In this document: in pieces, positions 8,009 through 64,000 of the stretch
Layout of the letters: each line of letters starts with the position of its first letter
How positions within the stretch are numbered: position 1 is the first letter of the stretch
Origin: Paenibacillus sp. FSL H8-0537
Lineage (GTDB): Bacteria; Bacillota; Bacilli; Paenibacillales; Paenibacillaceae
DNA length: 64,000 nt
NCBI RefSeq assembly: GCF_038051995.1
Contig: NZ_CP150290.1
Span: 6,362,501-6,426,500, forward strand
Reading direction: 5' to 3'
Program-made: the position numbers and the translations under genes
The notes under the pieces: model-generated
Told to the model about the DNA's origin: nothing
Database searches by the model: none
The model's input: only the letters and a program-made list of their open reading frames with translations

Positions 8009-11000
8009 TTAGCCTTCCAAATGGGCAGGCTTATTAAAATCTACTGGCGCTGCTTGGCCTTTCCCTTTGCGGAGCAGCTTGTTGCTAATCGCCTCAAGCA
8101 TCTCATATACGACTGGCACGACTACAAGCGTAAGCAGTGTAGAAGTGATCAAGCCTCCGATAACAACGACCGCGAGCCCTTTAGAAATAAGTACGCCTTC
8201 ACCAGTGCCCATTGCCAGAGGTATCATCGCTACTATCGTTGCGCCTGCTGTCATAATAATCGGACGCAGACGGACTCTGCCTGCTTCGACCAGCGCATGG
8301 CGGACGGAGAAGCCTTCATGCCGCAGCTGCTGCGCTCGGTCGAGCAATACGATCGCATTGGTAACGACGATGCCGATCAGCATCATAAATCCAATGAGGG
8401 ATGTAATATTAATGGATTCATTCGTAACCAGCAGGCCTAGCAAACCGCCAATAATGGCGAGCGGCAGCGAGAACAGAATCGCGAACGGCGTGCTGGCATT
8501 GCCGAAGCACAGAACCAGTATAAAATAAACGATAGCGATGGATACAGCCATAGCCATAAACAGCTGCGTGAAGCTTTCGGTGATTTCCTCCGACACGCCT
8601 TGTATCTCGGTAGATACACCTGTTGGAAGCTCAATTGCATCCAGCGCTGCCGCCACTCTTGTGCTGACATCAGTCTGGTTTGCTGCATCAATGGTAGCCG
8701 ACATCTTCACGACCTGCGAGCGCGATTCCCGGCTCAATGCAGCAGGGGCCTGTACTTCCTCTACTTTGGCCACCTCTTGCAAATAAACGATGCCTGCCGT
8801 CTGCGATAAAATCGGCATTTTGCCAAGCTTCTCAAGCGAGCCTTTATCTTCATCGCGAAGCTTGACCACTGTGGAATACAAAACATTATCAAAGCGAATA
8901 TCTCCAAGGCGCTGCTCTGCAAGCCACATCCGAACTGAATCTCTGACATCAGCAGGATTAATGCCAAGCTCTCTAGCCTTCGTCTGCGAAACGGTAATGC
9001 TTATTTCCGTTTTGGCGTCGCTAAGCGTATCCTTGATTTTAGTAAGCTCAGGGAATTCCTTCATTTTATCCTTGACGAGTGCGGCCCCCTGCTCAAGCAA
9101 CTGTTGATCGTCACCTTTCAGCACATAAGAGAAGGTTCCTCCGTTAAGACCTCCACCACCGCTTGCCGTCTCTCCCGTTACTTCCGTGCCTTGCGGCAAC
9201 TGGTTTTTAATCAGCTCCACATAGTTGTTCAAGACCAGCATTGCATCCTCTGCTTCGCTGATCTCAGCGGTAAGCAAGGTTGTATAAGGAACGGTATCGT
9301 CACTGTCCGCATATCCAACCAAGGACTCCACGAAGGTGAACAAGGCGCCGCCCTGGCTGTCTTTGGCATCCAGCAGCATCTTCTCAATTTCCTGTGACTG
9401 CATGTCATTGCTCTCCAGTGACGTTTCATAGGGATACTTCACTTGGAAGTACACGAGCTTCTCTGGGCCGCTCGAAGGCAGGAAGTTAACTGCCAAATTC
9501 GGAATCGTAATCGCCATGGTCACAACCAGCATGACAAGCGACATCAGCAAGGTTTTGATCCGATTAGTCAAGCACCATACTAGAATACGCTCATATAGAC
9601 GCGTTACTTTGCCGTCATGCGCATGCTCGTTCTGCTTAATCTGCTTGCGGCTGCGCAGTACGAGCAGCTTTGTCATCATAGGAATGACCGTCAGCGCCAC
9701 GACCAGTGAAGCAAGCAGAGCACATGATACCGTCAGCGCGAATGGCCGGAACATCTGTCCAACGATTCCGCCAACAACTGCGAGTGGCAGGAACACGCCT
9801 GCCGTAACGAGCGTCGAGGATGTAATCGCCATGGAAACTTGGCGGGTAGCCATAATAATGACGGATTCGCCGCGCTCCTGCGCTTTTTCCAGATTGCTGT
9901 ATATGTTCTCAATGACGACGATACTATCGTCCACAATTCGCCCAATGGCGATAAACATGCCGCCGAGCGTCATAATGTTCAGCGTAATATTCATGCTCGA
10001 CATCATAATCAGCGTGATCAGAATCGAGAGTGGAATCGAGACGAGAACGATCAACGTCATACGAATATTGCGAAGGAATAGCAGAATCATAAGCGAGGCA
10101 AGGGCAATCCCGATAAAGCCTTCCTTTAAAATGCCGCTGATCGATTTTCTAACCTCATCTGCGCCATCGTAAATTTTTTGGAATGTAACCGCTGGCTGCT
10201 TTGTTTCCCAATCGGTCAGCACCGAATTGACTTCATTGGAGAAATCAACCGCATTGGCTTCACTCATCTTATAAAGACGAATGCCCAGCGCAGGCTGATT
10301 GTTGTAGCGGGCAATAAACTTCGATTCGTTCACAGCCTGGACATCTCCCAAATCCTGAAGCAGCACCGTTTGACCGGTCCTCGTGGCAAACTCCAAATTG
10401 CGAAGGCCGTAAATGCTGTTTAAATCACCCGTCACCCGCGCCATCTGCGATTTGCCGTCCAGCTCTACTGAACCGACTGCACCATCCGTCAGAGCGGATT
10501 GAATGGCACTGGTTACCTCTACCGCCGACAAGTTGAACACGGATAAAGCATCTGCGTCCAGCAAAATATCGAGCGAGGTTGAACTAACGCCAATAGAATT
10601 AACATGGTCAATACCATTAACACCTTCCAGCGATGGCTTAATGCTATCCTCGTAAAGCTTGTTGAGCTCCATTTGCGACATGCCTTCCCCGGCATATAGC
10701 GTTAAGTAATAAGCAGGCTGGGAGGAAAAGCCGAAGGTCAAAACCTTTGGCGTACTCGCGCCAGCCGGAAGTGCTACCTCTTGCAGCAGGCTTTCCAGCT
10801 CCGTCTTTTTCTCCTTTATATCGTAGCCCTGCTTAAACTGGACAACGACGCTGGAAATATTATCGCTGGATGTTGAGCTGAGTGTATCTAGCCCCTGTAT
10901 GTTCGCGATTTTATCCTCAATCGGCTTCGTCACCTCATCCATCACATCCATTGGCGGTGCCGGATATGTGGTTTGAATCATGGCGACTGGAAACGAGATA

Positions 11001-53078: not shown

Positions 53079-53984
53079 CTATTCCAGCTTTGTTTGATAT
53101 TTAGTGGCCACTATTGCATTTTGAGGCAGCAAACACGGAATACCGCCTAAAATCGGATACGCTAGTAGGCTTTCAGGTGAATAGTAGCAATCCTCGTATT
53201 GAATCAACTCGCTTTTTGTAATCGGACAACATAGCGGCTTTTCCGACTTCGATACACCTTCATTATTTTTCCTAATAATGATGACACTAACAGGGTTAAG
53301 TTCATGGTAGTTCGCCTCAAATGGACGATGCTCAATTACATCGTAACCTAGCTCGACTGCTTTAGAGTATAAATCCTTCACGTAACCATGCTCTTGCATT
53401 CTCTTCTTTGCTTCTTCAGAAGAAAATTCATGTGTAGGCTCAAGGAGCACCAAGAATTTGGCTGCAATTCGATAGAGTTCCTTTAAAGCTTCTTCTTCTC
53501 TGCCACCATTAGATTCAATCGAATGAGTTGCATAAACAACATCTATCGCATTATCCTTAAATGGGGACTGAAACATATCGCCGGTGAGCAGCCTTACGCA
53601 CTCCAAATCTTGCTCTTTGATGAAGGCTTTAGCATATTTTATTCTAGACCATGATATGTCGAATCCATATGCCTTATCGGGTTGTTTTTGAAGTCGAGGA
53701 ATGGTGATTCCAAGCATAGTCCCCTCGCCAACGCCCACTTCCAATAAAGAATCGTATGACTCAAGGCCATCTAATATTTTAGCCAATGCAGTACTGAATG
53801 CATCTCGTGATACGGGATTGCTCTTATAACCTGCAATGTATGAACCAGCTTGAAAATCATAGCTGATCATTATATCTTCCGTGCTATTCATCGGGCTTCC
53901 GCTCATTTTTTTTAAGTGCTGAATGATATTTCCGTTTTGTTGATAAATCGCTTTGATTTTATGAAGAATTGAGTATTTATCCAT
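53079..53984 (-). CDS. SAM-dependent methyltransferase with C-terminal Trm112-like zinc-ribbon tail
   Basis: A 301-residue protein. Class-I methyltransferase motif I LLEVGVGEGTMLGITIP (about 98-114) is followed by GFDISWSRIKYAKAFI, LLTGDMFQSPFKDNAIDVVYATHSIES and a partner helix. The last about 60 residues, CCPITKSELIQYEDCYYSPESLLAYPILGGIPCLLP, look like the small Trm112/UPF0434 zinc-ribbon domain with a CC...C pattern. It lies 19 nt after the PseC-type gene, so it is the last gene of the nonulosonate operon. Its target (O-methylation of the sugar or another cluster product) is inferred only. Confidence 0.82.
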   Translation of the reverse strand: MDKYSILHKIKAIYQQNGNIIQHLKKMSGSPMNSTEDIMISYDFQAGSYIAGYKSNPVSRDAFSTALAKILDGLESYDSLLEVGVGEGTMLGITIPRLQKQPDKAYGFDISWSRIKYAKAFIKEQDLECVRLLTGDMFQSPFKDNAIDVVYATHSIESNGGREEEALKELYRIAAKFLVLLEPTHEFSSEEAKKRMQEHGYVKDLYSKAVELGYDVIEHRPFEANYHELNPVSVIIIRKNNEGVSKSEKPLCCPITKSELIQYEDCYYSPESLLAYPILGGIPCLLPQNAIVATKYQTKLE

Positions 53985-54003
53985 AGTTCCTCCAATAGGC
54001 GAG

Positions 54004-55185
54004 CTATATTCCTGAATAATATTGTTTATATATTTTCAACACGGCTGTTATTACATCAGCCACATCATGTTCATTCATCCTTGGAAACAACGGAAGTGTA
54101 ATGCAGGTTTGATAATACGTCTCCGCTTCGGGGCAATGCACTACCTCATTAACCTTATTCTTATAAAATGGCTGGTGGTACACAGGGATATAATGAACGT
54201 TAACCCCAATATTATTTTCCCTAAATGCCTCAAAAATCTCCCTACGGTCAGCCGTAAACTTGCCCTGCTCAAAGCGGATCATATATAAATGCCAGCTGGA
54301 GTCGCTTTTCTCGTGCTGGAACGGCAGGACTAACCCATCCAAGCCGGATAGAGCCTCGTTATAAGCCCCAGCAATCTCCCGTCGACGATCTACAAAATGA
54401 TCGAGCTTGCCCATTTGTGAATGGCCTAATGCCGCTTGAATATCTGTCATTCTGTAATTGTAGCCTAGCTCCGACATTTCATAATACCAAGGGCCATCGT
54501 TTTTCTGCATAACAGCAGCATCCCGTGTCATACCATGGTTTCTAAACAATAGCAGGCGTTTATAATAATGCTCGTCATCGGTTACGATCATGCCGCCTTC
54601 ACCTGAAGTCACATGTTTGACAGGATGAAAGCTGAACATTGTCATATGTGCCAATGAGCCTACCTTCTTCCCTGCATAAGAGGCTCCTAAAGAATGGGCG
54701 GCATCATGAATGACGACCAAATTATTTTTGCGAGCCAGTTCATTAATTCGATCCATATCTACAGGCTGTCCTGTAAAATCCACCGGAATAATCGCCTTGG
54801 TACGGCTCGTAATTAGCCTCTCTACCTCAGCCGGGTTGATATTATAGGTATCAGGCAATATATCTGCGAAAACTGGCTTGCCTCCCATATACAACACACA
54901 ATTGCTGCTGGCTATAAAGGTAATTGGCGTTGTTATAACCTCATCATCATCACCGATGCCCGCAGCAAAACAGGCGCCATGAAGGGCCGCCGTTCCATTA
55001 CAAAAAGCAACCGCGTAACGAACGCCGGCGTATTCCGCCACCCGGCGCTCAAACCGCTCAATAGCTGGACCCTGAGTAATAAGCTCGCCGCGCAAAACCT
55101 GCACCACAGCCTCGATATCCTCTTCATCCAGCCACTGCTTGCCATAAGGCAGCAGCGCTTCTCTAACTGGTCCCGCATATTCCAT
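54004..55185 (-). CDS. pseC: PseC-type sugar-nucleotide aminotransferase (DegT/DnrJ/EryC1/StrS)
   Basis: A 393-residue PLP enzyme. It shows LPYGKQWLDEEDIEAVVQVLRGELITQGPAIERFE, VAFCNGTAALHGACFAAGIGDDDEVITTPITFIASSNCVLYMGGKPVFADI, IHDAAHSLGA and the PLP lysine in FHPVKHVTSGEGGM (about 186). The opening and the FIASSNC block match PseC (UDP-4-keto-6-deoxy-L-AltNAc aminotransferase) better than LegC. It would place the amine that becomes N-7 of pseudaminic acid. It lies 22 nt after the SDR gene. Confidence 0.87.
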   Translation of the reverse strand: MEYAGPVREALLPYGKQWLDEEDIEAVVQVLRGELITQGPAIERFERRVAEYAGVRYAVAFCNGTAALHGACFAAGIGDDDEVITTPITFIASSNCVLYMGGKPVFADILPDTYNINPAEVERLITSRTKAIIPVDFTGQPVDMDRINELARKNNLVVIHDAAHSLGASYAGKKVGSLAHMTMFSFHPVKHVTSGEGGMIVTDDEHYYKRLLLFRNHGMTRDAAVMQKNDGPWYYEMSELGYNYRMTDIQAALGHSQMGKLDHFVDRRREIAGAYNEALSGLDGLVLPFQHEKSDSSWHLYMIRFEQGKFTADRREIFEAFRENNIGVNVHYIPVYHQPFYKNKVNEVVHCPEAETYYQTCITLPLFPRMNEHDVADVITAVLKIYKQYYSGI

Positions 55186-55207
55186 CTGATCTGCCGCCTT
55201 TCCTAAA

Positions 55208-56158
55208 TTAAATCAAATCCGTTACGCGAATCCAGTCCTCTGTCCGCTTAATCCCTTCTTCCAGAGTCACCTCTGGCTTCCAGCCAAGCAGCCCAAAGGC
55301 TTTGGATGAGTTGCAAAGCAGCTTCTGAATTTCACTCTGCGGATGGATATGCTCAACATGGTGGATACGGGATTCATCCCCCTCCAGCACGAGCTTCGCC
55401 AATTCATTAACCGAAATGTCACGGCCCAAGCCCGCATTGACGATTTCGCCGTTCACTTTATCGGAATAGCCTGCTTCAACGACAAATCTCGCACAGTCCG
55501 CCACATACAGCAGGTCACGCGTCTGCGTACCTTCCCCGTATATATTCAAATCTTTGCCTGCTAGCTTGTTCTTTAAGAAAATAGCTACAACTCCGCCTTC
55601 GCCTCCGGTCTTCTGAAACGGACCATAGGTATTAAATGGACGTATAACAACCGTCGGCAAACCGTATGCATGATAATACGACAGTACCATATTTTCAGCA
55701 GCAATTTTGGCGCCTGCATAAGGCGAAGCCGGTTTGATCGGATGATGCTCTGCAATTCCGCTCTCTTCTGTACAACGGTCATAAACCATGCAGGTGCTCA
55801 TAAATACGACTTTGACATTATGCTTACGAGCCTGCTCCAGCACATGAAAGGTTCCAATTGTATCATTGTTGAAGGTAGTGCGAGGATCATCTATAGAATC
55901 CTGTACATTTATAGATGCGCCAAGATGATAGCAAATGTCGAATTTATGTTCTTCGAAAAGCTGCTTCAGCAAAGACTCGTCGAGTATTGACCCCTCAATG
56001 AAACGCTCCAGACGCGAATGCTGGCGAAATTCCTCAATATTCGCTTCCCTGCCATTAGATAAATCATCAATAATCCATAAGTTGTGGCCATCCTCAAGCA
56101 GTTGCTTGGCTACCCATCTTCCAATAAAACCAGCTCCGCCGGTCAGCAATATATTCAC
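55208..56158 (-). CDS. NAD-dependent epimerase/dehydratase (extended SDR) of the nonulosonate operon
   Basis: A 316-residue Rossmann protein with glycine motif TGGAGFIGRWVAKQL, D at the end of beta-2 (IIDDLSNG), the active-site Ser/Thr region VVFMSTCMVYD, the Tyr-Lys pair in SPYAGAKIAAENM (about 147-159), and FNTYGPFQ. The usual Asp-Glu pair of 4,6-dehydratases (STDEVYG) is replaced by TCMVYD, so an epimerase or related oxidoreductase role is as likely as the first dehydratase step. The start is GTG 56158, with AGGAGG 6 nt upstream. Substrate not known; from context probably a UDP-sugar. Confidence 0.82.
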   Translation of the reverse strand: MNILLTGGAGFIGRWVAKQLLEDGHNLWIIDDLSNGREANIEEFRQHSRLERFIEGSILDESLLKQLFEEHKFDICYHLGASINVQDSIDDPRTTFNNDTIGTFHVLEQARKHNVKVVFMSTCMVYDRCTEESGIAEHHPIKPASPYAGAKIAAENMVLSYYHAYGLPTVVIRPFNTYGPFQKTGGEGGVVAIFLKNKLAGKDLNIYGEGTQTRDLLYVADCARFVVEAGYSDKVNGEIVNAGLGRDISVNELAKLVLEGDESRIHHVEHIHPQSEIQKLLCNSSKAFGLLGWKPEVTLEEGIKRTEDWIRVTDLI

Positions 56159-56200
56159 AATAGTCCTCCTAAAGGATATTCTTCTTATCCTGAAATCAAA

Positions 56201-57001
56201 TTAAAAAGCTCTAACAAGCTTAGGTTCTTCATGGCCTAGCTCTCCGTCCAAATAACGATCAACGATATCATTATTAAATGTGTTATATACCAGCCTTAAA
56301 TGCTGTGGAGCCCAATCTTTCGATGTAAACAGCTTGCCGCTGGAGCGCTGCGGAATTGCTTTAAACGATTGACCTTCACCCATCTTATTAAAAAGGTGGA
56401 TGAGATCCTCGGCAGCCTGCTTAACCGCATTACAGGCAACATCATGCAGACCTTCCCCCCGGTGCAGCTCAGGCACAGAATGATGAATGACGGCTCCCCC
56501 ATCCAATTGGGAAGTCAGTTGGTGAATCGTCATACCCGCCCAGTTCGGCTTAAGGAAATAGAATGGCCAGAAAAGCGTAATATTCCCACGATACCAAGGA
56601 GATAAGCCTCCATGTATATTCCAGGATATTTCCGGGAAAACGCTCAGCGTCTCTTCGTCAAGCTTATGAACCCCATAGCTCACTACAGCCTGGGGATTTT
56701 GCTCAATCACCCATTGTCTAGTCTCACTGCTATTTAATTGATCTATAGTTACCTCACGCACGGGTATGCCTTCAAATACTTTGAGATCAGCTTCCCCAAA
56801 TGCCTGCTCTTCCGCGCTCTGACGATCCGAAAAATGGCGAACGAAATTATGTTGATCCAGCTCCGACCAGCTAGGGTGCGGATTGGGCATTAGCTCTTCA
56901 CGTTTTTCAATCAATAATGCTTGCAGCAGCCCCTCTTCATGCAAACGTTTTGCAATATGCAAATGCCGCGGATGGGACCCCGTCAGAAAAATCAATTTCA
57001 T
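56201..57001 (-). CDS. Formyltransferase-family protein (sugar N-formyltransferase candidate)
   Basis: A 266-residue protein with the formyl-transferase core: SWNIHGGLSPWYRGNITLFW contains the N-I-H of the catalytic triad (about 128-130), and MTIHQLTSQLDGGAVIHH contains the Asp (about 167). It lacks the C-terminal tRNA-binding domain of methionyl-tRNA formyltransferase and is embedded in a sugar operon. It therefore probably transfers formyl from 10-formyltetrahydrofolate to an amino sugar. It overlaps the DUF4910 gene by 4 nt (ATGA). The N-formylated position is inference. Confidence 0.83.
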   Translation of the reverse strand: MKLIFLTGSHPRHLHIAKRLHEEGLLQALLIEKREELMPNPHPSWSELDQHNFVRHFSDRQSAEEQAFGEADLKVFEGIPVREVTIDQLNSSETRQWVIEQNPQAVVSYGVHKLDEETLSVFPEISWNIHGGLSPWYRGNITLFWPFYFLKPNWAGMTIHQLTSQLDGGAVIHHSVPELHRGEGLHDVACNAVKQAAEDLIHLFNKMGEGQSFKAIPQRSSGKLFTSKDWAPQHLRLVYNTFNNDIVDRYLDGELGHEEPKLVRAF

Positions 57002-58347
57002 TTGAACAGCCTTCCTTTCTCTGCGTATGGACCTTCAATAATTCCTTTTTCCTTTAATTGCTCGATGAACGGGAGAATTGCAGCAATACTGGATCGGCAC
57101 AATTCGGCAATTTCAGTCAAAGTATGCTCGCCATCTGCATAGTTGAGTATCGTTAATATAATATTCAGCTGTCTGCGGTTGTCCATAACTTCATTGGACG
57201 ACTGGGAACGATTAATGGGTGAATTAATATCCGGATACAGACCATGCTTATCTAGTTTAACCTCACCATAAGGTGAACGGTTTACATAATAACCTTCTGC
57301 TTCATTCAACTCCAACAGCCGCTCCAATTCCTCCACACTGCGCTGCAGCGCTTCAATGGTCATAGCTTCTTTCGTATCCAAGGAATTATGATAGCCATCA
57401 TAAAGCCCATATACCGTGCGGGCCATCTGGCCAACAGGGAGATTGAAGCCTGGAGAGCAATATTGACGCTCATCCGATCCAAAAGCCGGGGTGAATGGGC
57501 GAGTTTTCCCCTCCAATTCTCCCCTTTCAAGAAGCTGTTGCCATATGTGATCCAATGGATTAGCACCCGAGCGTGAGAGCTTATAGTTTAACGGCTCGGG
57601 CCCTCCTAAGCAGGTTAATACTAGGCCTGCTTGTGTATTTTGCTTCATTTCTGTACCAAAACGATGTAAATAAGCAATGCTGCCAATCGTCTCCGGCACA
57701 AAAACAAAACGGTATGTATAACGGCGCTTGCTCCATTTAGCAATCCGATTATATAAAAATGCAGCAACAAGAGGTCCACTTAATTCGTTGTTAGCCATCG
57801 ATGGATGACAAATGTAGGTGCTAATCAACACCTCTCGATCCGTTTCGCCTGGAAGCACAGAGTGGGCGTAATTAAGCTCTCCGTCAATATGCTCACTATC
57901 TATGTATGCTTCGTACTCTCCTTCTACCAACTGCTCCCTCTCGCAATGCGGCAGACAAAAACCCCAGCGCTCTTTGTAGTAGGAGGTAACATAAGGAACA
58001 GCCTCTGGCAGATGAGGAATCGAAAATAAATGTCCTTCCAGCTCAGCCAGCGAAAGCTTTGTTTGGACTGGCGTGCTGTAATTGAGAATTTGCAAATTGC
58101 TGCTCTTAAAATCTGCAAGCTTGCGTCCATCCGGCGCCTTTAACCAGCCATCACGAATGACCCATTCCTTCGGTATTTCCCAATCGAATGCCTGCTTTCC
58201 CGTCGGCTCACCAAATACCTCTAGAGGCATATATTCTGACAAGATTTCGATAGTTTCGCGCAGCCCTTCTCCTGTAATGCTTCGGCATATGGGAAAAAGA
58301 CGGTCGAATAGCTTGTCCATTGCTTCCAATTCTTTTACTTTATCCAC
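56998..58347 (-). CDS. DUF4910/DUF2172 aminopeptidase-like protein with winged-helix tail
   Basis: A 449-residue three-part protein. The M28-like metal-peptidase fold has STYICHPSMANNELSGPLVAAFL (His about 181), VPETIGSIAYL (Glu about 219), AFGSDERQYCSPGFNLPVGQM (Asp about 292) and YHNSLDT (His about 320), the conserved ligand positions of the family. DUF2172 is inserted early. The last about 75 residues (about 375-449) LNIILTILNYADGEHTLTEIAELC form a winged helix. Proteins of this type occur in polysaccharide and nonulosonate clusters with no known reaction. The start is GTG 58347 with AAAGGGC upstream. Placement between PseI and the formyltransferase makes an N-deacylase role possible. Confidence 0.84.
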   Translation of the reverse strand: MDKVKELEAMDKLFDRLFPICRSITGEGLRETIEILSEYMPLEVFGEPTGKQAFDWEIPKEWVIRDGWLKAPDGRKLADFKSSNLQILNYSTPVQTKLSLAELEGHLFSIPHLPEAVPYVTSYYKERWGFCLPHCEREQLVEGEYEAYIDSEHIDGELNYAHSVLPGETDREVLISTYICHPSMANNELSGPLVAAFLYNRIAKWSKRRYTYRFVFVPETIGSIAYLHRFGTEMKQNTQAGLVLTCLGGPEPLNYKLSRSGANPLDHIWQQLLERGELEGKTRPFTPAFGSDERQYCSPGFNLPVGQMARTVYGLYDGYHNSLDTKEAMTIEALQRSVEELERLLELNEAEGYYVNRSPYGEVKLDKHGLYPDINSPINRSQSSNEVMDNRRQLNIILTILNYADGEHTLTEIAELCRSSIAAILPFIEQLKEKGIIEGPYAEKGRLFK

Positions 58348-58374
58348 AGCGACTGCCCTTTCTTATTCGGTTTG

Positions 58375-59424
58375 CTAGAGGATATCCCATGATAACGGGG
58401 TACCTTTCTTGAGGTCCGTTCTTGCTTGTTTGCCTAGAATCAGTTCCATATATTTGGTTGGAAGGCCTAGCCCCGGCCTTATCGCTCTTACATTTTGCTC
58501 TGTAAACGCCTCTCCTGCCTTCACATCTTCTGCAATGTATAAGGAGCGGCGATAATTTCTGGAATCCTGCTCCGCCTGCGTTGCGCCGTAAACTACACCG
58601 CCAATTGCCTGCCAAGCACGCTCCGTCTCAATGGAAAGCGCCTTAAACTCCTCCGGCTCTAAAGAGAATGTCGAATCCACTCCTCCATCAGCCCGTGACA
58701 GTGTAAAATGCTTTTCGATAACAGTTGCGCCAAGCGCCACGCTCGCGACGGAAACTCCGACACCCATTGTATGGTCGGAGAGCCCTACTTGGCATTGAAA
58801 CAGCTTCTCCAGATGCGGAATTGTTGCTATATTCGTGTTAGCTGGCGAGGCAGGGTATGTACTGGTACATTTTAATAAAATAAGATTATCGCAGCCTGCT
58901 TCTTTCGCCGCTCTCACTGTTTCATCCAATTCAGCGATAGAAGCCATCCCTGTCGAGATAATGACGGGTTTACCTGTTGCCGCTACCTTGCGGATCAGCG
59001 GAATATCTGTATTTTCAAATGAAGCAATTTTATAAGCCGGCACGTCCAGCTCTTCCAGAAAATCAACGGCGCTCGCATCAAACGGTGTGCTGAACGCAAT
59101 CATGCCACGCTCGCGGCAGCGATCAAAGATTGGCTTATGCCACTCCCAAGGCGTGTATGCTTCTTGATACAGTTTATAAAGCGAAGTGCCCTGCCACAAA
59201 TTATCGGAGCTGGAAATGAAAAAATCGCCTTCGTGAATATTGAGCGTCATCGTATCCGCTGTGTAGGTTTGCAACTTGAGTGCATCTGCCCCAGCATCGG
59301 CCGCTGCATCCACTATAGCCAGTGCACGCTCAAGTGATTGATTATGATTACCCGACATCTCGGCAATTAAAAATGGCTTATGTGTTTTCCCAATTATGCG
59401 GTCCAAAATGTGAATGTCTTTCAT
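58375..59424 (-). CDS. pseI: Pseudaminic acid synthase PseI (NeuB family)
   Basis: A 349-residue enzyme condensing a 6-deoxy diamino-hexose with phosphoenolpyruvate. The TIM barrel has FLIAEMSGNHNQSLERALAIVDAAADAGADALKLQTYTADTMTL (the KLQTYTADTMT form is characteristic of PseI rather than NeuB or LegI), IAFSTPFDASAVDFL, YKIASFENTDIPLI, PVIISTGMAS, GLSDHT and VIEKHFTLSRADGGVDSTFS. The C-terminal SAF/antifreeze-like domain (about 285-349) has RRSLYIAEDVKAGEAFTEQNVRAIRPG. GGAGGA precedes the ATG. It overlaps the end of pseG by 47 nt. Confidence 0.92.
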   Translation of the reverse strand: MKDIHILDRIIGKTHKPFLIAEMSGNHNQSLERALAIVDAAADAGADALKLQTYTADTMTLNIHEGDFFISSSDNLWQGTSLYKLYQEAYTPWEWHKPIFDRCRERGMIAFSTPFDASAVDFLEELDVPAYKIASFENTDIPLIRKVAATGKPVIISTGMASIAELDETVRAAKEAGCDNLILLKCTSTYPASPANTNIATIPHLEKLFQCQVGLSDHTMGVGVSVASVALGATVIEKHFTLSRADGGVDSTFSLEPEEFKALSIETERAWQAIGGVVYGATQAEQDSRNYRRSLYIAEDVKAGEAFTEQNVRAIRPGLGLPTKYMELILGKQARTDLKKGTPLSWDIL

Positions 59425-60520
59425 CTCGTAATCGTTCCTCCGTTATCACCGTAATCACCCGGCTCTGCTTCTGGCCAGGCTGGCTGCCCATCAATTCTAG
59501 AGCTTTGGTCCCCATAGCACCTAGATTAAAGATAGAACCACATGCTTTATTAAGTATATCGGCATATTGCTCCGAATTTATTTGTCCGTGCCAGCCCATT
59601 TCAATGACCGCCCCTAGCTGCCCAGCTAATGCAACGGTATCTGCCTGATTTTCAGCAACAACCGCAACAGCAGAGGGCAGGCCCAAGTAGCAACGTTCCC
59701 ACATCGCCACGCCGCCCGCTCCTAAAGCAAAATCTGCTGCAGCAATAAGCTCTGCCATGTTTTCAATTTGAATATGTAAGGCGACACCCGTCATTTCATC
59801 ACAAAACTGCTTAATCTCCTCCAGACGTGGATTCGCTGTTCCTATCACTACATCGGTGTGGATCAGCGGGGTATCCATCGGGGAATTTGCAGTTAGACTA
59901 TTCAATGCCTTCAAAGCCTTCAGCGTTTCATTGGTAGGGTCACTGCCTCCGAAAAAAACGAGCAGCCGCTTCACTTCTTCCCCTCGCCGCCTTAAAGCCG
60001 CCCGCTGCTCATAAAATGAGGGCCTCAAAAGCAAGTAAGAGGGGCCAAGCAGCATCTTGCAGTCATCGGGAACGAGATTACGGTAACGATACTCCTGATC
60101 CGATGACAAGTTTTGGTCCAGAAGCAGATCTGCTGAATGCCTACGGTCAGCAAGATCATCAATGACCATTAACTTGCCAGCATGCGGCTTAACGCTCACC
60201 TCCCATTGCTCATCTAGAGCATAATGGTCAACGATGAGCCAGTCCGGATGCATCTTCGCACACAGTTGAACGGTGTATTGCGCATCCTGCTCTACAGCCG
60301 CAACATCTAATCTCTCCAACGGAGCAGTCGAGGGAATCCCGACAAATGGATAGCCTCGTTGAATAATATAATCACGCAAATTCCCTTCCAGCAGGCGGCT
60401 TATGAAAATAATGCAGTATCCGCAAGAAGCAAGCTCATCCGCCAGCGAGAGGCATCGCATAATATGTCCCGTTCCGATTGCACCTGACGCATCCGCACGT
60501 ATAATTACATTAGCCGCCAT
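59378..60520 (-). CDS. pseG: UDP-2,4-diacetamido-2,4,6-trideoxy-altropyranose hydrolase PseG (SpsG-like)
   Basis: A 380-residue GT-B-fold hydrolase that removes UDP before PseI acts. Visible are RADASGAIGTGHIMRCLSLADEL (the GxGHxxR catalytic His), WLIVDHYALDEQWE, MVIDDLADRRHSADLLLDQN, LLVFFGGSDPTNETLKAL and GAGGVAMWERCYLGLPSAVAVVAENQ. It starts at ATG 60520, sharing one base with the stop of the SpsF/PseF gene (TGATG). The C-terminal about 15 residues overlap the pseI start. Confidence 0.9.
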   Translation of the reverse strand: MAANVIIRADASGAIGTGHIMRCLSLADELASCGYCIIFISRLLEGNLRDYIIQRGYPFVGIPSTAPLERLDVAAVEQDAQYTVQLCAKMHPDWLIVDHYALDEQWEVSVKPHAGKLMVIDDLADRRHSADLLLDQNLSSDQEYRYRNLVPDDCKMLLGPSYLLLRPSFYEQRAALRRRGEEVKRLLVFFGGSDPTNETLKALKALNSLTANSPMDTPLIHTDVVIGTANPRLEEIKQFCDEMTGVALHIQIENMAELIAAADFALGAGGVAMWERCYLGLPSAVAVVAENQADTVALAGQLGAVIEMGWHGQINSEQYADILNKACGSIFNLGAMGTKALELMGSQPGQKQSRVITVITEERLRDERHSHFGPHNWENT

Positions 60521-61245
60521 CAAACAACCGGCTTTTGCTCAATATGAGCATTTAATCGAGCGACTTCCGGATGAGCCAATAAATAATCGACCACCTCAGC
60601 GGCGGGCACGGCCATATCGCCATGAAAAGCTTCCGCTAGCGCGCGGCATAAGGCATAATCCTCAGCTGTATCAAGAGTAATTCTCAGCTCGGGATGCCTC
60701 AGCTTCTCGGGAACTTGGACAGCTATATTCGAAAACTGCTCTGCATATTCATAGGCATAGTAGGTAACATGCTCCCGGTGCCGCTCTTCTGTAGGGGCAT
60801 GCTGGATTTTAGTCAAAGCGCGATAGGAAATCATTTCGACGGCAAGTCCTCTTGGGAGTGCTCCCTCCAGTAGAGCTATATCCGCCGGCTGCTCCTCCAT
60901 TGCTTGAACAATGCGGCTGGCGAGAGCATAATCCACAAATGGACAGTCCGAGGTCACTCGAATAATATAATCAGGCGCATAGGGAGCCGCACATTCATAA
61001 TAACGGGATAAAACATCCTGCTCTGCCCCTCTAAAGCAGGCTACACCATTTTCAGCACACCAGCTTGCAATGGCATCATCGCCTGGCAAAATCGAAGTCG
61101 CTACGACAACCTCCTGAACGGAAGCAATGCTCCGGCTTCGCTTCACCACATAATGGAGAACACAGCTGTCTCCTAGCGGCAGCAGTATTTTTCCAGGGAG
61201 TCTGGATGAGCCCATTCGAGCCTGAATAATAACAATGGTTTTCAT
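60520..61245 (-). CDS. CMP-nonulosonate cytidylyltransferase, SpsF/PseF type
   Basis: A 241-residue nucleotidyltransferase: MKTIVIIQARMGSSRLPGKILLPL, VVVATSILPGDDAIASWC, RVTSDCPFVDYALASRIVQAM and RITLDTAEDYALCRALAEAF. This is the SpsF family of B. subtilis spore-coat polysaccharide clusters, whose members are taken to activate a nonulosonate with CTP. The start at ATG 61245 has GGGAGGG 5 nt upstream; the frame runs 38 codons further without a site. First gene of the minus-strand operon. Confidence 0.88.
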   Translation of the reverse strand: MKTIVIIQARMGSSRLPGKILLPLGDSCVLHYVVKRSRSIASVQEVVVATSILPGDDAIASWCAENGVACFRGAEQDVLSRYYECAAPYAPDYIIRVTSDCPFVDYALASRIVQAMEEQPADIALLEGALPRGLAVEMISYRALTKIQHAPTEERHREHVTYYAYEYAEQFSNIAVQVPEKLRHPELRITLDTAEDYALCRALAEAFHGDMAVPAAEVVDYLLAHPEVARLNAHIEQKPVV

Positions 61246-61327
61246 GAATTCCCTCCCTTGCAGTAAACTATGTATATGTATTTTATCGGTTAACATGGCC
61301 GTTCCGAATAGAGCAAATGTTTCCTGT

Positions 61328-61336
61328 ATTATAGCA
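61328..61336 (-). promoter_or_regulatory. Extended -10 promoter of the minus nonulosonate operon
   Basis: Minus strand TGCTATAAT fits TGnTATAAT. It lies about 85 nt ahead of the SpsF/PseF start at 61245. No good -35 box is visible. Confidence 0.5.
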
Positions 61337-61533
61337 TAAGAGACAAAATCGATCGGCACACCAACATACAGCTAATCTATTTCCAATATCGCGCCGCGAC
61401 TTTGAAATTCGCAAAAATAATAAAGCACAAACAGCCTAAGAAGTTTCGTCTGAAATGCCGATATTTAAAAAAGACACTTACGAAACGACAAGCTGCCCCA
61501 TCTGGAAAATTGGAAACGTATTTCTTTTGAAAA

Positions 61534-61542
61534 TGGTACAAT
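61534..61542 (+). promoter_or_regulatory. Extended -10 promoter of the plus nonulosonate operon
   Basis: TGGTACAAT fits the extended -10 pattern, 68 nt ahead of the acetyltransferase ATG (61610). A TTGAAA just upstream (61527) is too close to be its -35. Confidence 0.4.
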
Positions 61543-61609
61543 TACAATAGTCATTTAAGCACATTTGATAAGCCGCTTACACATGCAGCAGGGGTCAAGG
61601 AGGTTTTTC

Positions 61610-62146
61610 ATGATAGAATTTATTAAGCTCCGCGAAGAGCATTTGGAGCAAGTCCTAAGCTGGCGGATAAAAGAGAGCGTCACCAAATATATGTTTTCGG
61701 ATATTACCTATAATTTGGACAACCAGAAAAAGTGGTTTGATCACATCTCCCGTTCTGAAACCGATAAATATTGGATCATTTCCATAAAAGGTGTGCTGGT
61801 TGGAGTCATTTCCTTAAACGGGATAGATTACGCCCATAAACGGACAAGCTGGGGCCTTTATATTGGAGAAGAGGATTACACCCTGTACGGCGGCATCCTT
61901 CCTCCTTACCTTTATTATCATGTATTCCATGAGCTTGGGCTTCATAAAATAATCGCCGAGGTCATGGAAGGCAATGATAATATTATGAAAATACATAAAC
62001 TGCACGGCTACCGGGAAGTCGGCATTTTGAAAGAGCATATCTTTAAATATGGACGCTTCCACGATGTTCATGTTATGGAGCTGATGAAGGAAGCCTGGGC
62101 TGCAAAAAGCAAGCCAAAAAAATATGCAGACAGCTTTGAACGTTAG
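61610..62146 (+). CDS. GNAT acyltransferase, PseH-like
   Basis: A 178-residue GNAT protein. It shows IKLREEHLEQVLSWRIKESVTKYMFSDITYNLDNQKKWFD, ISLNGIDYAHKRTSWGLYIGEE, then LGLHKIIAEVMEGNDNIMKIHKLHGYREVGILKEHIF. The WR...F start and the GLYIG / HKLHGYR blocks are those of PseH/SpsD enzymes that acylate the 4-amino group of the UDP-sugar in this pathway. The start ATG 61610 has AAGGAGG 6 nt upstream; the frame extends 15 codons further without a site. It is followed by an ACP gene, so the acyl donor may be acyl-ACP rather than acetyl-CoA. Confidence 0.85.
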   Translation: MIEFIKLREEHLEQVLSWRIKESVTKYMFSDITYNLDNQKKWFDHISRSETDKYWIISIKGVLVGVISLNGIDYAHKRTSWGLYIGEEDYTLYGGILPPYLYYHVFHELGLHKIIAEVMEGNDNIMKIHKLHGYREVGILKEHIFKYGRFHDVHVMELMKEAWAAKSKPKKYADSFER

Positions 62147-62172
62147 CAGCTGCCTGCCTTGGAGGAACGATT

Positions 62173-62400
62173 ATGAACGGACAACTATTAAATATATTAA
62201 ATGAAATGCTTGAGGAAGCTGGAAATGCACCGATCGCAACTCTTGAAGACAGTCTAAGCCTGAGAGAAGATTTACATATGGATTCCTTTATGCTAGCCGA
62301 GCTGACAGTGAGAATCGAAGAGGCATTTGATGTCGACATTTTTGAGGATGGCATTGTTCTGACGATTGGTGAAGTGATTGCCAAGATCGAAGGTCAATAA
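62173..62400 (+). CDS. Dedicated acyl carrier protein
   Basis: A 75-residue four-helix carrier with the phosphopantetheine Ser in HMDSFMLAELTVRIEEAF (Ser 38), acidic as expected, and ending VIAKIEGQ. It is distinct from a housekeeping AcpP, which carries ADSLDTVE at this site. It sits between a GNAT gene and an adenylate-forming ligase, which together imply loading and transfer of an acyl group. AGGA in CTTGGAGGAAC precedes the ATG. Confidence 0.88.
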   Translation: MNGQLLNILNEMLEEAGNAPIATLEDSLSLREDLHMDSFMLAELTVRIEEAFDVDIFEDGIVLTIGEVIAKIEGQ

Positions 62401-62401
62401 A

Positions 62402-63649
62402 ATGGAGCCGATTTTTTTGTCCGATGACGGCAAGCCATATACCTACGCCCGACTGCTAGGTGATCTGCAGGCCTTACAAACCTACTCCCCATTCGTTTAT
62501 GTGAAAAATAACGAGCCATACGCTATTTTTCTGGCGATTGTGCACAGTCTCGTCCATCAGCATGCCATAGAGGTGCTGGACGGAGATTTTTCACAGCAGG
62601 AGCTAACCGCTTTGGGTATAGATGCTGCGGCTCTAGCCGTGGAATACCCTGTTAAGAGGCCGCTCGATATCAAAAATGTGTCTGAATTACTTATGTTAAT
62701 TAGGCAAAACAAGGACTGGTCAGCAGCTCTGCTGACCTCCGGCACAACGGGCAGGCCAAAGAAGGTCATTCATACGCTGGAGACGCTAACGCGGACGGTT
62801 AAAATAAATGATCGCTTTCGCGACCATGTTTGGGCTTTTGCCTATAACCCAACTCATATGGCCGGCTTACAGGTTTTTTTCCAAGCGTTATTTAACCAAA
62901 ATACAATTGTTTATGCCTTTGACGGCAGACAAAGACAGCTTGGCGAACATATTCGGCGATATGCCATTACTCATATTTCGGCAACTGCAACCTTCTATCG
63001 CAATGTGATACCTCATTTGCGCGGAGATGTTTACCCAAGCGTTAAGGCGGTTACTTTTGGCGGTGAGAAATACGATCCCCATTTGGAAGGCTCTATCGCC
63101 ACTCTTTTTCCAAAAGCTAAAATCCGTAATATTTATGCATCTACTGAGGCTGGAAGCTTATTTACAGCTAACGGGGATATTTTTGAAATAGGTGAAGAGA
63201 TGGAGAAGCTCGTCCGCTTCACAGAAGCGAATGAACTAATGATTCACCGTTCCTTGCTTGGTGGCTCAGATACCTTTTCCTTGGATGGAGAATGGTACCG
63301 TACAGGGGATATTGTCGAGCTTGAAGGAGATGGCCGTTTCCGGTTTGTGTCGAGGGAGACTGAACTTATTAATATTGGTGGTTATAAAGTTAATCCTTCT
63401 GAGGTAGAGAATACCTTAATACAGGTACCCGGCGTACTGAATCTACTTGTTAAAGCTAAGGCCAATAGTGTAACGGGCCAGATTCTTGTGATGGATGTCG
63501 TCAAAGACACCGGCTATGAAGATGCTGCTTTAAAAAAAGCGATTAAACAATATGCGACCGAGCAGCTGCAGGAGTGGAAGGTTCCCCGAATTATTAAATT
63601 TGTGGACGACATTCCTGGTTCGCGGACAGGAAAGAAGGTTAGAGCATGA
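62402..63649 (+). CDS. Adenylate-forming acyl/aryl ligase (ANL superfamily)
   Basis: A 415-residue ligase, shorter than usual (about 500) because the N-terminal part is compact. Motifs are A3 LLTSGTTGRPKKV (about 111-123), A5 IYASTEAGSLF, A7 WYRTGDIVEL, A8 SRETELINIGGYKVNPSEVENTL, and the A10 lysine in GSRTGKKVR at the very end. It would activate a carboxylic acid as AMP ester and load the adjacent ACP. The acid is not predictable here. ATG 62402 overlaps no gene; the frame reaches back into the ACP gene, which is coding in another frame. Confidence 0.86.
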   Translation: MEPIFLSDDGKPYTYARLLGDLQALQTYSPFVYVKNNEPYAIFLAIVHSLVHQHAIEVLDGDFSQQELTALGIDAAALAVEYPVKRPLDIKNVSELLMLIRQNKDWSAALLTSGTTGRPKKVIHTLETLTRTVKINDRFRDHVWAFAYNPTHMAGLQVFFQALFNQNTIVYAFDGRQRQLGEHIRRYAITHISATATFYRNVIPHLRGDVYPSVKAVTFGGEKYDPHLEGSIATLFPKAKIRNIYASTEAGSLFTANGDIFEIGEEMEKLVRFTEANELMIHRSLLGGSDTFSLDGEWYRTGDIVELEGDGRFRFVSRETELINIGGYKVNPSEVENTLIQVPGVLNLLVKAKANSVTGQILVMDVVKDTGYEDAALKKAIKQYATEQLQEWKVPRIIKFVDDIPGSRTGKKVRA

Positions 63650-64000
63650 AGTGGATTATAGTGACTGGTCACTCAACCGGCCTCGGCAAAGAAATCGCCA
63701 CTCAAATTTTATCAGAGACGGACTACGGCGTAATTGGAATCAGCCGCTCCGGGGAAGCTTCAGTTCAAGACCTTATAGAGAAGTATCCGGAGAGATTGAA
63801 AGCTATTTCCTTCGACCTGTCGAACAGCTCGGATATTAAAGCGTTATATTTGCAGCAAATTCGCAAAATTGGTCCTGTCTACGGGCTTGTCAACAATTCG
63901 GCCGCTGCATATGACGATATTATTACCAATATGAATATGGAACGGCTAGAGCAAATGTTTCAAGTCAATGTGTTTGCAGCTATGCATTTAACCAAATATG
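63646..64000 (+). CDS. Short-chain dehydrogenase/reductase, FabG-like, N-terminal fragment
   Basis: Starts at ATG 63646 with a 4-nt ATGA overlap to the ligase stop. It reads MKWIIVTGHSTGLGKEIA (the TGxxxGxG NADP site), GVIGISRSG, and VYGLVNNSAAAYD (NNxA), then runs off the window at residue 118. The Tyr-Lys active site is not in the window. As part of this operon it could reduce a beta-ketoacyl-ACP to the hydroxyacyl form. Confidence 0.82.
   Translation, partial: MKWIIVTGHSTGLGKEIATQILSETDYGVIGISRSGEASVQDLIEKYPERLKAISFDLSNSSDIKALYLQQIRKIGPVYGLVNNSAAAYDDIITNMNMERLEQMFQVNVFAAMHLTKY

Follow-up and report, generated by a model that had tools for sequence, protein, structure and literature searches.

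The window described here is the whole 64,000-nt stretch at positions 6362501–6426500 of the single 7.0-Mb contig of a Paenibacillaceae genome, that of Paenibacillus sp. FSL H8-0537. Two divergent operons, the last genes of the window, are one end of a flagellin glycosylation island. They combine genes for the synthesis of pseudaminic acid (Pse), a sialic-acid-like sugar, with a conserved gene pair that encodes a DUF4910 protein and a sugar N-formyltransferase. To judge by its features, this pair could serve widely for exchanging the acid group on sugars of this kind. Judged from sequence, there is a roughly even expectation that the locus makes a cytidine monophosphate (CMP)-Pse with two non-standard N-acyl groups for flagellin, by way of the Pen/Pal route, a PseH enzyme fed by an acyl carrier protein (ACP), and a DUF4910/formylation step. 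A wider reading is more tentative: the two genes may represent a portable N-acyl exchange cassette across bacteria and archaea, in which DUF4910 would strip the N-acetyl group of an amino sugar and the amine would be refilled by a partner, which is a formyltransferase or, in a different clade, an AAC(3)-type enzyme. In the present genome this would result in a flagellin Pse with a 5-N-formyl and a 7-N-hydroxyacyl group. The latter would be delivered by a PseH branch that depends on ACP, and aminoethylphosphonate genes are found in the same island.

The DUF4910 and formyltransferase gene pair

The DUF4910 gene is at positions 56998–58347 on the minus strand and overlaps by 4 bp the formyltransferase gene at 56201–57001, also on the minus strand. 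It encodes a proposed sugar N-deacetylase with DUF4910, DUF2172 and HTH_47 domains (282.3, 115.1 and 49.9 bits). DUF4910 (PF16254) is above the gathering score, DUF2172 is inserted in it, and a winged helix is present at the C-terminus. The protein is zinc-hydrolase-like and scores 307.9 bits with PDB 3k9t. Of the residues considered for a possible M28-type two-zinc site, His181, Glu219, Asp292, Glu293 and His320 are kept in the sequence, and position 187 is Asn. The formyltransferase matches Formyl_trans_N at 26.2 bits, which just reaches the Pfam cut-off of 26.1. The N-H-D triad that an earlier note on this DNA had pointed out consists of N128, H130 and D167, and it is invariant in all 41 aligned homologues. 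A comparison with solved structures gives 37.5 (phmmer) and 63.0 (profile) bits to ArnA, and 27.8 and 43.9 bits to PseJ. Assignment as PseJ was rejected, since ArnA scores higher in both searches and PseH is also in the locus.

A formyltransferase match at E 1e-5 or better is present in 14 of 295 genomes of the family, ten of them strong (at least 57% identity, own genome included) and four weak (26–35%). DUF4910 directly adjoins the formyltransferase in all ten strong loci, and Pal, PseC and PseI are in the locus in every case. In the 18–20 kb taken around the four weak matches DUF4910 was not found, and these genomes are not among the 21 of the family that match DUF4910 at E 1e-30. The one weak homologue tested has PseJ as its nearest relative. 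Seen from DUF4910, 10 of these 21 genomes have the formyltransferase adjoining.

A scan of named records with the formyltransferase alignment yields 47 loci from Bacillota, Pseudomonadota, Actinomycetota, Chloroflexota, Bacteroidota, Cyanobacteriota, Planctomycetota, Acidobacteriota and archaea, and DUF4910 adjoins the formyltransferase in 44. The exceptions are L056 and L059, which are not judgeable because their contigs start just 204 and 275 bases before the gene, and L078, a formyltransferase match of 26%. All 43 pairs measured are on the same strand. The gap is 20 bp or less in 38 and at most 355 bp, and the 4-bp overlap is present in 22. The named loci and the family set are not independent, because some genomes are common to both (L036/L023, L039/L026, L040/L027). 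The formyltransferase gave no match in phages, and its haloarchaeal homologue gave none in plasmids.

A crystal structure and a knockout phenotype are known for DUF4910, but no proven reaction was found in the open papers searched, and none of these was found to link DUF4910 to a formyltransferase. The two occur as separate phase-variable genes, DUF4910/DUF2172 and formyltransferase, in one report (PMC6321876), and Geobacillus flagellin islands hold formyltransferase genes (PMC5109656); L041, one of the formyltransferase loci, is from Geobacillus icigianus. The near-constant formyltransferase partner points to a concrete, testable reaction for DUF4910. The pair, if the reading is true, would explain N5-formylated nonulosonic acids from pathways that start with N-acetylglucosamine (GlcNAc). 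A different setting is seen in a Phycisphaeraceae metagenome-assembled genome (L075:8297-10795), where RmuC and glutamine synthetase genes flank the pair on one side and an open reading frame (ORF) without a Pfam match on the other; a NeuB-family gene was not found in this stretch.

A converse survey covers 25 Firmicutes DUF4910 neighbourhoods from family, class and phylum draws, i.e., 12 family genomes outside the strong formyltransferase set, eight from the class and five from the phylum. The last five are the full-length strong matches besides that of the window; two fragments and low-scoring matches in larger proteins were excluded. In a separate DUF4910 clade, the position of the formyltransferase is taken by an AAC(3)-family gene. 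This gene is within 152 bp of DUF4910 in seven neighbourhoods (L118, L125–L128, L133, L135). Six of these seven genes were checked by Pfam (95.8–119.2 bits), and the AAC(3) profile for the neighbourhood scan was built from these six. The formyltransferase is present in six others (L129–L132, L136, L137), three of which are records that also carry another handle: L131 is L064, L132 is L041 and L137 is L058. L117 has a weaker AAC(3) match 2.4 kb from DUF4910. The plasmid set consists of 15 DUF4910 loci of 42 matching records; AAC(3) adjoins in two (L139, L152) and is 1.4–1.6 kb off in three (L140, L141, L143). Plasmid locus L138 is a haloarchaeal nonulosonate cluster, and L142 and L145 are without annotation.

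A quickly built tree covers 93 DUF4910 proteins. Its clade of 13 (support 100) contains eight of the nine AAC(3)-labelled rows and five unlabelled ones, among which L152 has AAC(3) and L117, L140 and L141 have it farther off. Another clade, with 35 rows (support 99), contains 33 formyl-linked rows, L138, and the ninth AAC(3) row, L139. The remaining 18 formyl-linked rows, from many phyla, fall in separate groups. With the 33 unlabelled rows excluded, the labels require two changes each, compared with 8.7 and 8.6 when shuffled. His181, Asp292, Glu293 and His320 are present in 92 of the 93 rows. Glu219 is present in 84, including all 51 formyl-linked and all nine AAC(3)-labelled rows. The nine rows of the plasmid CDP-sugar clade (L142 and L144–L151) have Gly (eight) or Ala (one) at this position, and neither a formyltransferase nor an AAC(3) partner was found for them.

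By their annotation, seven plasmid loci that have neither partner (L144, L146–L151) share a cytidine diphosphate (CDP)-sugar cassette, where DUF4910 is found with a short-chain dehydrogenase/reductase (SDR), RfbC, a methyltransferase and a cytidylyltransferase. A PIG-L deacetylase is present in six of the seven; the plasmids are rhizobial, Roseateles, rhodobacteral and Streptomyces. Eight Cohnella-type loci (L113, L115, L116, L119, L120, L121, L123, L124) have two DUF4910 genes approximately 3 kb apart. Their divergent second copies keep Glu219 and differ at Ser183, Ser190 and Gly191. A rule that every DUF4910 adjoins an N-acyltransferase was rejected as false for Cohnella-type, rhizobial and Streptomyces loci.

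Acyl carrier protein genes linked to PseH

The plus operon has the order PseH, ACP, ligase and FabG-like reductase. The PseH-type GNAT gene (positions 61610–62146, plus strand) is of the clade linked to acyl-module genes and scores 112.6 bits with TIGR03585, above the cut-off of 93.1. Its ORF begins at 61565, but the start is probably near 61610 because of the lengths of the relatives. It is the one PseH over cut-off in the whole genome and is 4.6 kb from the formyltransferase. The ACP gene (62173–62400, plus strand; PP-binding, 26.5 bits) encodes HMDSF (Ser38) at the attachment site. The adenosine monophosphate (AMP)-forming ligase, a proposed loader of this ACP, is at 62378–63649 on the plus strand (AMP-binding 71.9 bits, C-terminal domain 51 bits). 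The FabG-like SDR gene (63646–64000 in the window, plus strand) scores 160 bits with adh_short_C2 and 171 bits with TIGR01830, the latter below the cut-off of 297.75, and has the S-Y-K motif. These three genes agree with the ACP, adenylate-forming ligase and FabG-like reductase of the earlier note, and the operon does run past the window as it had claimed: its stop, just beyond the window, is at 64371.

In a first search of 34 formyltransferase loci (L022 and L037 are from one genome), a GNAT is found in 15 and an ACP is alongside in 15 of 15. A more sensitive search did not find an ACP in the other 19, several of which are truncated, and these 19 have weak GNATs (35–46 bits) in L022, L033 and L037 only. 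L052 and L131 have LuxC or LuxE plus a ligase at the edge of the stretch. The module takes the forms ACP-ligase-FabG (window), FabH-ACP-SDR (L026, the same record as L039) and ACP-FabG-ligase-LuxE-LuxC. As a control, the best 30 of 35 PseH matches from the class draw were examined with flanks of 1.5 kb. Eight of these 30 loci (own included, and L184 counted on a 28-bit ACP match) have ACP, LuxE or LuxC, and 22 have none within 1.5 kb.

A tree of 45 PseH proteins places that of the window in a clade of 24 (99/99). All 24 have module genes in the locus, 22 of them in the stretch examined and two (L169, L174) approximately 3 kb away. A separate clade of 19 has no module genes within 1.5 kb. There are two misfits, L040, which has the module and is beside the second clade, and L171, which is without it and next to the first. 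The module label requires three changes, compared with 15 when shuffled. The PseH and DUF4910 class draws appear to be the same 398 genomes. Ten of these have a module-linked PseH, and in five (G699, G786, G018, G849, G874) there is no DUF4910 match at E 1e-30. A PseH branch that is tied to ACPs could help to predict acyl variants of flagellar sugars from sequence.

Pathway genes and the flagellin island

The minus operon has the order SpsF, PseG, PseI, DUF4910, formyltransferase, Pal, PseC and methyltransferase, and the intergenic gaps inside both operons are −47 to 42 bp. All genes that the earlier note named are found where it had placed them; Pal and DUF4910 are additional to these. Its PseG, PseI, PseC and PseH-like GNAT all exceed the curated NCBIfam cut-offs, which were used for these four families. 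On the minus strand, PseC (54004–55185) scores 506.9 bits with TIGR03588 (cut-off 423.5). The pseudaminic acid synthase PseI (58375–59424) scores 511.2 bits with TIGR03586 (cut-off 340.25) and has the KLQTYTADTMT motif already noted, at residue 50. The uridine diphosphate (UDP)-sugar hydrolase PseG (59378–60523) scores 300.7 bits with TIGR03590 (cut-off 153.55). The PseG model covers residues 5–296 of 381, with about 85 residues extra, and the relatives are similar (357–380 aa).

The CMP transferase is indeed of the SpsF type (60520–61245, minus strand; CTP_transf_3, 108.7 bits). A longer ORF extends to 61359, but the start has been moved to near 61245, where it probably lies because most relatives are 240–250 aa. 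The last gene of the operon encodes an S-adenosylmethionine methyltransferase (53079–53984, minus strand; Methyltransf_11, 42.3 bits). A relative is at the same place in L019 (76%) and another is at a different place in L024 (54%); there is no blastp match in the remaining relative loci of the family comparison.

Pal, the second enzyme of the Pen/Pal route, is encoded at 55208–56158 on the minus strand and scores 475.3 bits with PDB 6bwl, "Pal". An ordinary 4-epimerase at 55208 was rejected on this match. Pen is represented by a PseB-like gene at 79551–80540, 15.5 kb past the window, with 370.3 bits to PDB 6bwc, which is given as Pen (PMC8987622). It is the best PseB-type match of the genome, yet it is below the PseB cut-off (335.2 versus 407.75). 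By these matches the pathway is the Pen/Pal form of Pse synthesis. Pen and Pal are also able to feed legionaminic acid in B. subtilis, where the sps enzymes are related (PMC7439481), and the PseI model was therefore run on 14 control genomes. At E 1e-60 five match, B. subtilis included, with one over the cut-off; at E 1e-99 Caulobacter alone matches and B. subtilis does not. The nonulosonate is taken to be Pse.

The sequence past 64000 continues with convergent island genes. Glycosyltransferase-like genes follow the plus operon, then phosphonate genes, Pen and Maf, and then flagellar genes (FliT, FliS, FliD, FlaG, flagellin, CsrA, FliW, FlgL, FlgK). Maf and the nonulosonate genes adjoin the flagellin genes (MptE-like 141.4, Maf N-terminal 31.3, flagellin 139.8 bits). 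The assignments of Pen, Maf, flagellin and the phosphonate genes come from sequence searches; the remaining flagellar names, as well as hpf, secA and prfB on the far side, were given by eye. Positions 64466–82700 are AT-rich, with a GC content of 37.6% compared with 48.8% for the window. The possibility that the ACP genes are part of an unrelated lipid or peptide cluster was rejected on this extension, which is a flagellin island. The earlier note had proposed a flagellin, S-layer or spore-coat glycan. Because of the position of the genes in the island, flagellin is the likelier of these, and S-layer and spore coat are less likely.

The same island has phosphonate genes at 72586–79508 (L003:9587-16509), beyond the window. 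They encode a phosphoenolpyruvate mutase (395.7 bits) fused to a nucleotidyltransferase, a phosphonopyruvate decarboxylase (406.6 bits), an aminoethylphosphonate aminotransferase (388.6 bits), another nucleotidyltransferase, and a TauD dioxygenase that matches TmpA weakly. A flagellin glycan bearing aminoethylphosphonate is plausible, and the type A glycan of C. difficile can bear this group (PMC8861647). Positions 64466–72575 (L003), also beyond the window, encode proteins of 433, 668, 375 and 481 aa with a similar Rossmann-like later stretch, as judged by eye; the 481-aa protein has a CoA_binding match in that stretch.

A TAAG-N16-GCCGATAT site at 61437–61464 on the plus strand, ahead of PseH, resembles the flagellar sigma consensus and is found at the same place in L019. 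The pattern is also present 78 bp upstream of the flagellin gene of this genome, and the flagellar genes hold two further sites. Elsewhere in the window the pattern matches once, at 10090; the expectation in mononucleotide-shuffled windows is 0.31 matches. In 12 relative loci, ten have none and L043 has one at another place. A sigma-70 promoter between the operons was rejected (0 found, compared with 1.4 expected from shuffles).

Proposed pathway and comparison with known systems

With the families, gene order, pairing and clades observed as described, we infer every reaction of the pathway, the timing of the DUF4910 and formylation steps, the identity of the acyl groups and their positions. 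Pen and Pal would convert UDP-GlcNAc to UDP-4-keto-6-deoxy-L-AltNAc, and PseC would aminate C4. The ligase would charge the dedicated ACP with an acid. The ACP-borne acyl group would be reduced by the FabG-like enzyme, most likely from 3-keto to 3-hydroxy, and moved by the PseH-type GNAT to the C4 amine (later N7). PseG and PseI would build the nonulosonate. DUF4910 would hydrolyse the GlcNAc-derived N-acetyl group (N5), and the formyltransferase would formylate the freed N5 amine from formyl-tetrahydrofolate. SpsF would make the CMP sugar and Maf would attach the sugar to flagellin.

The formyl group is placed on the amine freed by DUF4910 because the PseH clade occurs without DUF4910 and the formyltransferase seems to need it. 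N5 is chosen because of Cj1295, a DUF4910-family protein that is required for 5-N-(2,3-di-O-methylglyceroyl) Pse; the study that reports this suggests that the acetamido group at C5 is cleaved (PMC3068675). A 5-N-formyl group does exist, on the legionaminic acid of Halorubrum (PMC6137143). A four-carbon (C4) 3-hydroxyacyl group would be the simplest product, because of the module form with FabH.

The earlier note had likened the product to the pilin glycan of Pseudomonas aeruginosa 1244, a Pse with 5-N-beta-hydroxybutyryl and 7-N-formyl groups. The protein families and the tie to the PseH clade support a Pse pathway to which a formyltransferase and a module of ACP, ligase and reductase are added. 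Formyl-Pse enzymes (PseJ) and, independently of them, ACP modules had been described before. Both kinds of substituent are still predicted, but the positions are better mirrored, with formyl on N5 and the ACP acyl on N7, because DUF4910 could supply the removal of the N-acetyl group. On the best reading, the product would be an isomer of the Pseudomonas sugar. Its calculated residue mass, with formyl and if the acyl is hydroxybutyryl, is 346.138, compared with 316.127 for Pse5Ac7Ac.

A number of points weigh against this pathway. In the 3k9t study no canonical peptidase site was recognized, and transacylation is put first, with deacylation possible in principle (PMC4000134); the position of 3k9t Asp195 is Asn in 33 of the 51 formyl-linked rows, that of the window included. 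The dimethylglyceroyl sugar of C. jejuni forms with the neighbouring N-acetyltransferase Cj1296/7 out of frame in both variants studied (PMC3068675), and a 2026 figure legend gives Cj1296–Cj1310 as not involved (PMC13317340); the neighbour of DUF4910 is therefore not always the re-acylase. Neither partner is adjacent in 12 of the 25 surveyed neighbourhoods (L113–L117, L119–L124, L134), and neither was found nearby in 10 of the 15 plasmid loci. A NeuB-family gene is absent from the stretch examined in 15 of 47 formyltransferase loci, several of these stretches being truncated. Hydroxybutyryl as the acyl loaded by the ligase is a guess.

PseJ formylates the PseC product. If the window's formyltransferase is PseJ-like and acts on the C4 amine (N7), PseH would put the ACP acyl on N5 after deacetylation by DUF4910, and the product would be the Pseudomonas 1244 isomer. 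This arrangement is unlikely, although it agrees with the dependence of the C. jejuni N5 acyl variant on the DUF4910 protein (PMC3068675) and with the location of C. acetobutylicum CA_C2195 near an ACP and N-acetyltransferases (PMC4000134). Against it, the formyltransferase is nearer to ArnA than to PseJ, and the module-linked PseH is present in five genomes without a DUF4910 match. Where this can be judged, the formyltransferase is not seen without DUF4910, save for the 26% match, and there are formyltransferase-DUF4910 loci in which no ACP was found in the finite stretches, e.g., L035, L044 and L129. Slightly less likely still is that DUF4910 is not a hydrolase, but a transacylase or a carrier or scaffold for the formyltransferase, and that the target of the pair is a different amino sugar in the glycan, with Pse ordinary at N5. 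The non-canonical site and the preferred reading of the 3k9t authors (PMC4000134) favour this, as do the pairs without a NeuB-family gene in their stretches and the one beside RmuC and glutamine synthetase. However, in the window a single operon holds the pair, flanked by PseI and Pal; all ten strong family matches have PseI, Pal and PseC along with it, and the family relative Cj1295 alters Pse itself (PMC3068675).

It is improbable that the ACP, ligase and SDR have a function apart from this sugar and that PseH is an ordinary acetyl-coenzyme A enzyme. The window's PseH does pass the ordinary cut-off, and most class-wide PseH loci have no ACP, LuxE or LuxC within 1.5 kb, but its own clade is linked to the module throughout and convergent island genes come next beyond the operon. 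The lowest likelihood is given to a nonulosonate other than Pse, either legionaminic acid or a further isomer, with the acyl chemistry unchanged. The use of Pen and Pal for legionaminic acid in B. subtilis (PMC7439481) is in its favour; PseI and PseC scores well above the cut-offs and the result at E 1e-99 with the control genomes argue against it.

The predicted pathway to a 5-N-formyl, 7-N-hydroxyacyl Pse has several known counterparts. It has Pen, Pal, PseC, PseG and PseI-type enzymes in common with the Pen/Pal pathway of Bacillus thuringiensis, to which the window adds DUF4910, the formyltransferase and a dedicated ACP, ligase and reductase. PseJ (PDB 6ci2, 6ci4) is likewise a formyltransferase in a Pse setting and of the same fold family by sequence. 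PseJ takes the place of PseH, whereas the window has PseH as well and its formyltransferase has DUF4910 as the partner. The sugar of P. aeruginosa 1244 combines formyl and hydroxybutyryl on one Pse, as predicted here if the acyl is hydroxybutyryl, but the predicted positions are reversed and the carrier is pilin rather than flagellin; the comparison covers the sugars. Halorubrum sp. PV6 has the formyl group on the nonulosonate N5, as predicted here, but on legionaminic acid in an archaeal N-glycan, and the available text names a formyltransferase gene (953-bp product) and no DUF4910 gene (PMC6137143). Cj1295 and CA_C2195 are flagellin-locus DUF4910-DUF2172 proteins of the same family in the context of flagellar sugars, but the accessible parts of the two reports mention no formyltransferase partner for them (PMC3068675, PMC4000134). 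The Aeromonas group II and enterobacterial flagellin islands share ACP, reductase and ligase with the window; their luxE and luxC are not in the window, and DUF4910 is not mentioned in the sections available (PMC7874193, PMC4875605). The Pse derivative of Aeromonas AH-3, from the island group with acp, reductase, ligase, luxE and luxC, is 376.14 Da (PMC7874193), and the mass calculated for acetyl plus dihydroxybutyryl substitution, 376.148, fits it by mass only.

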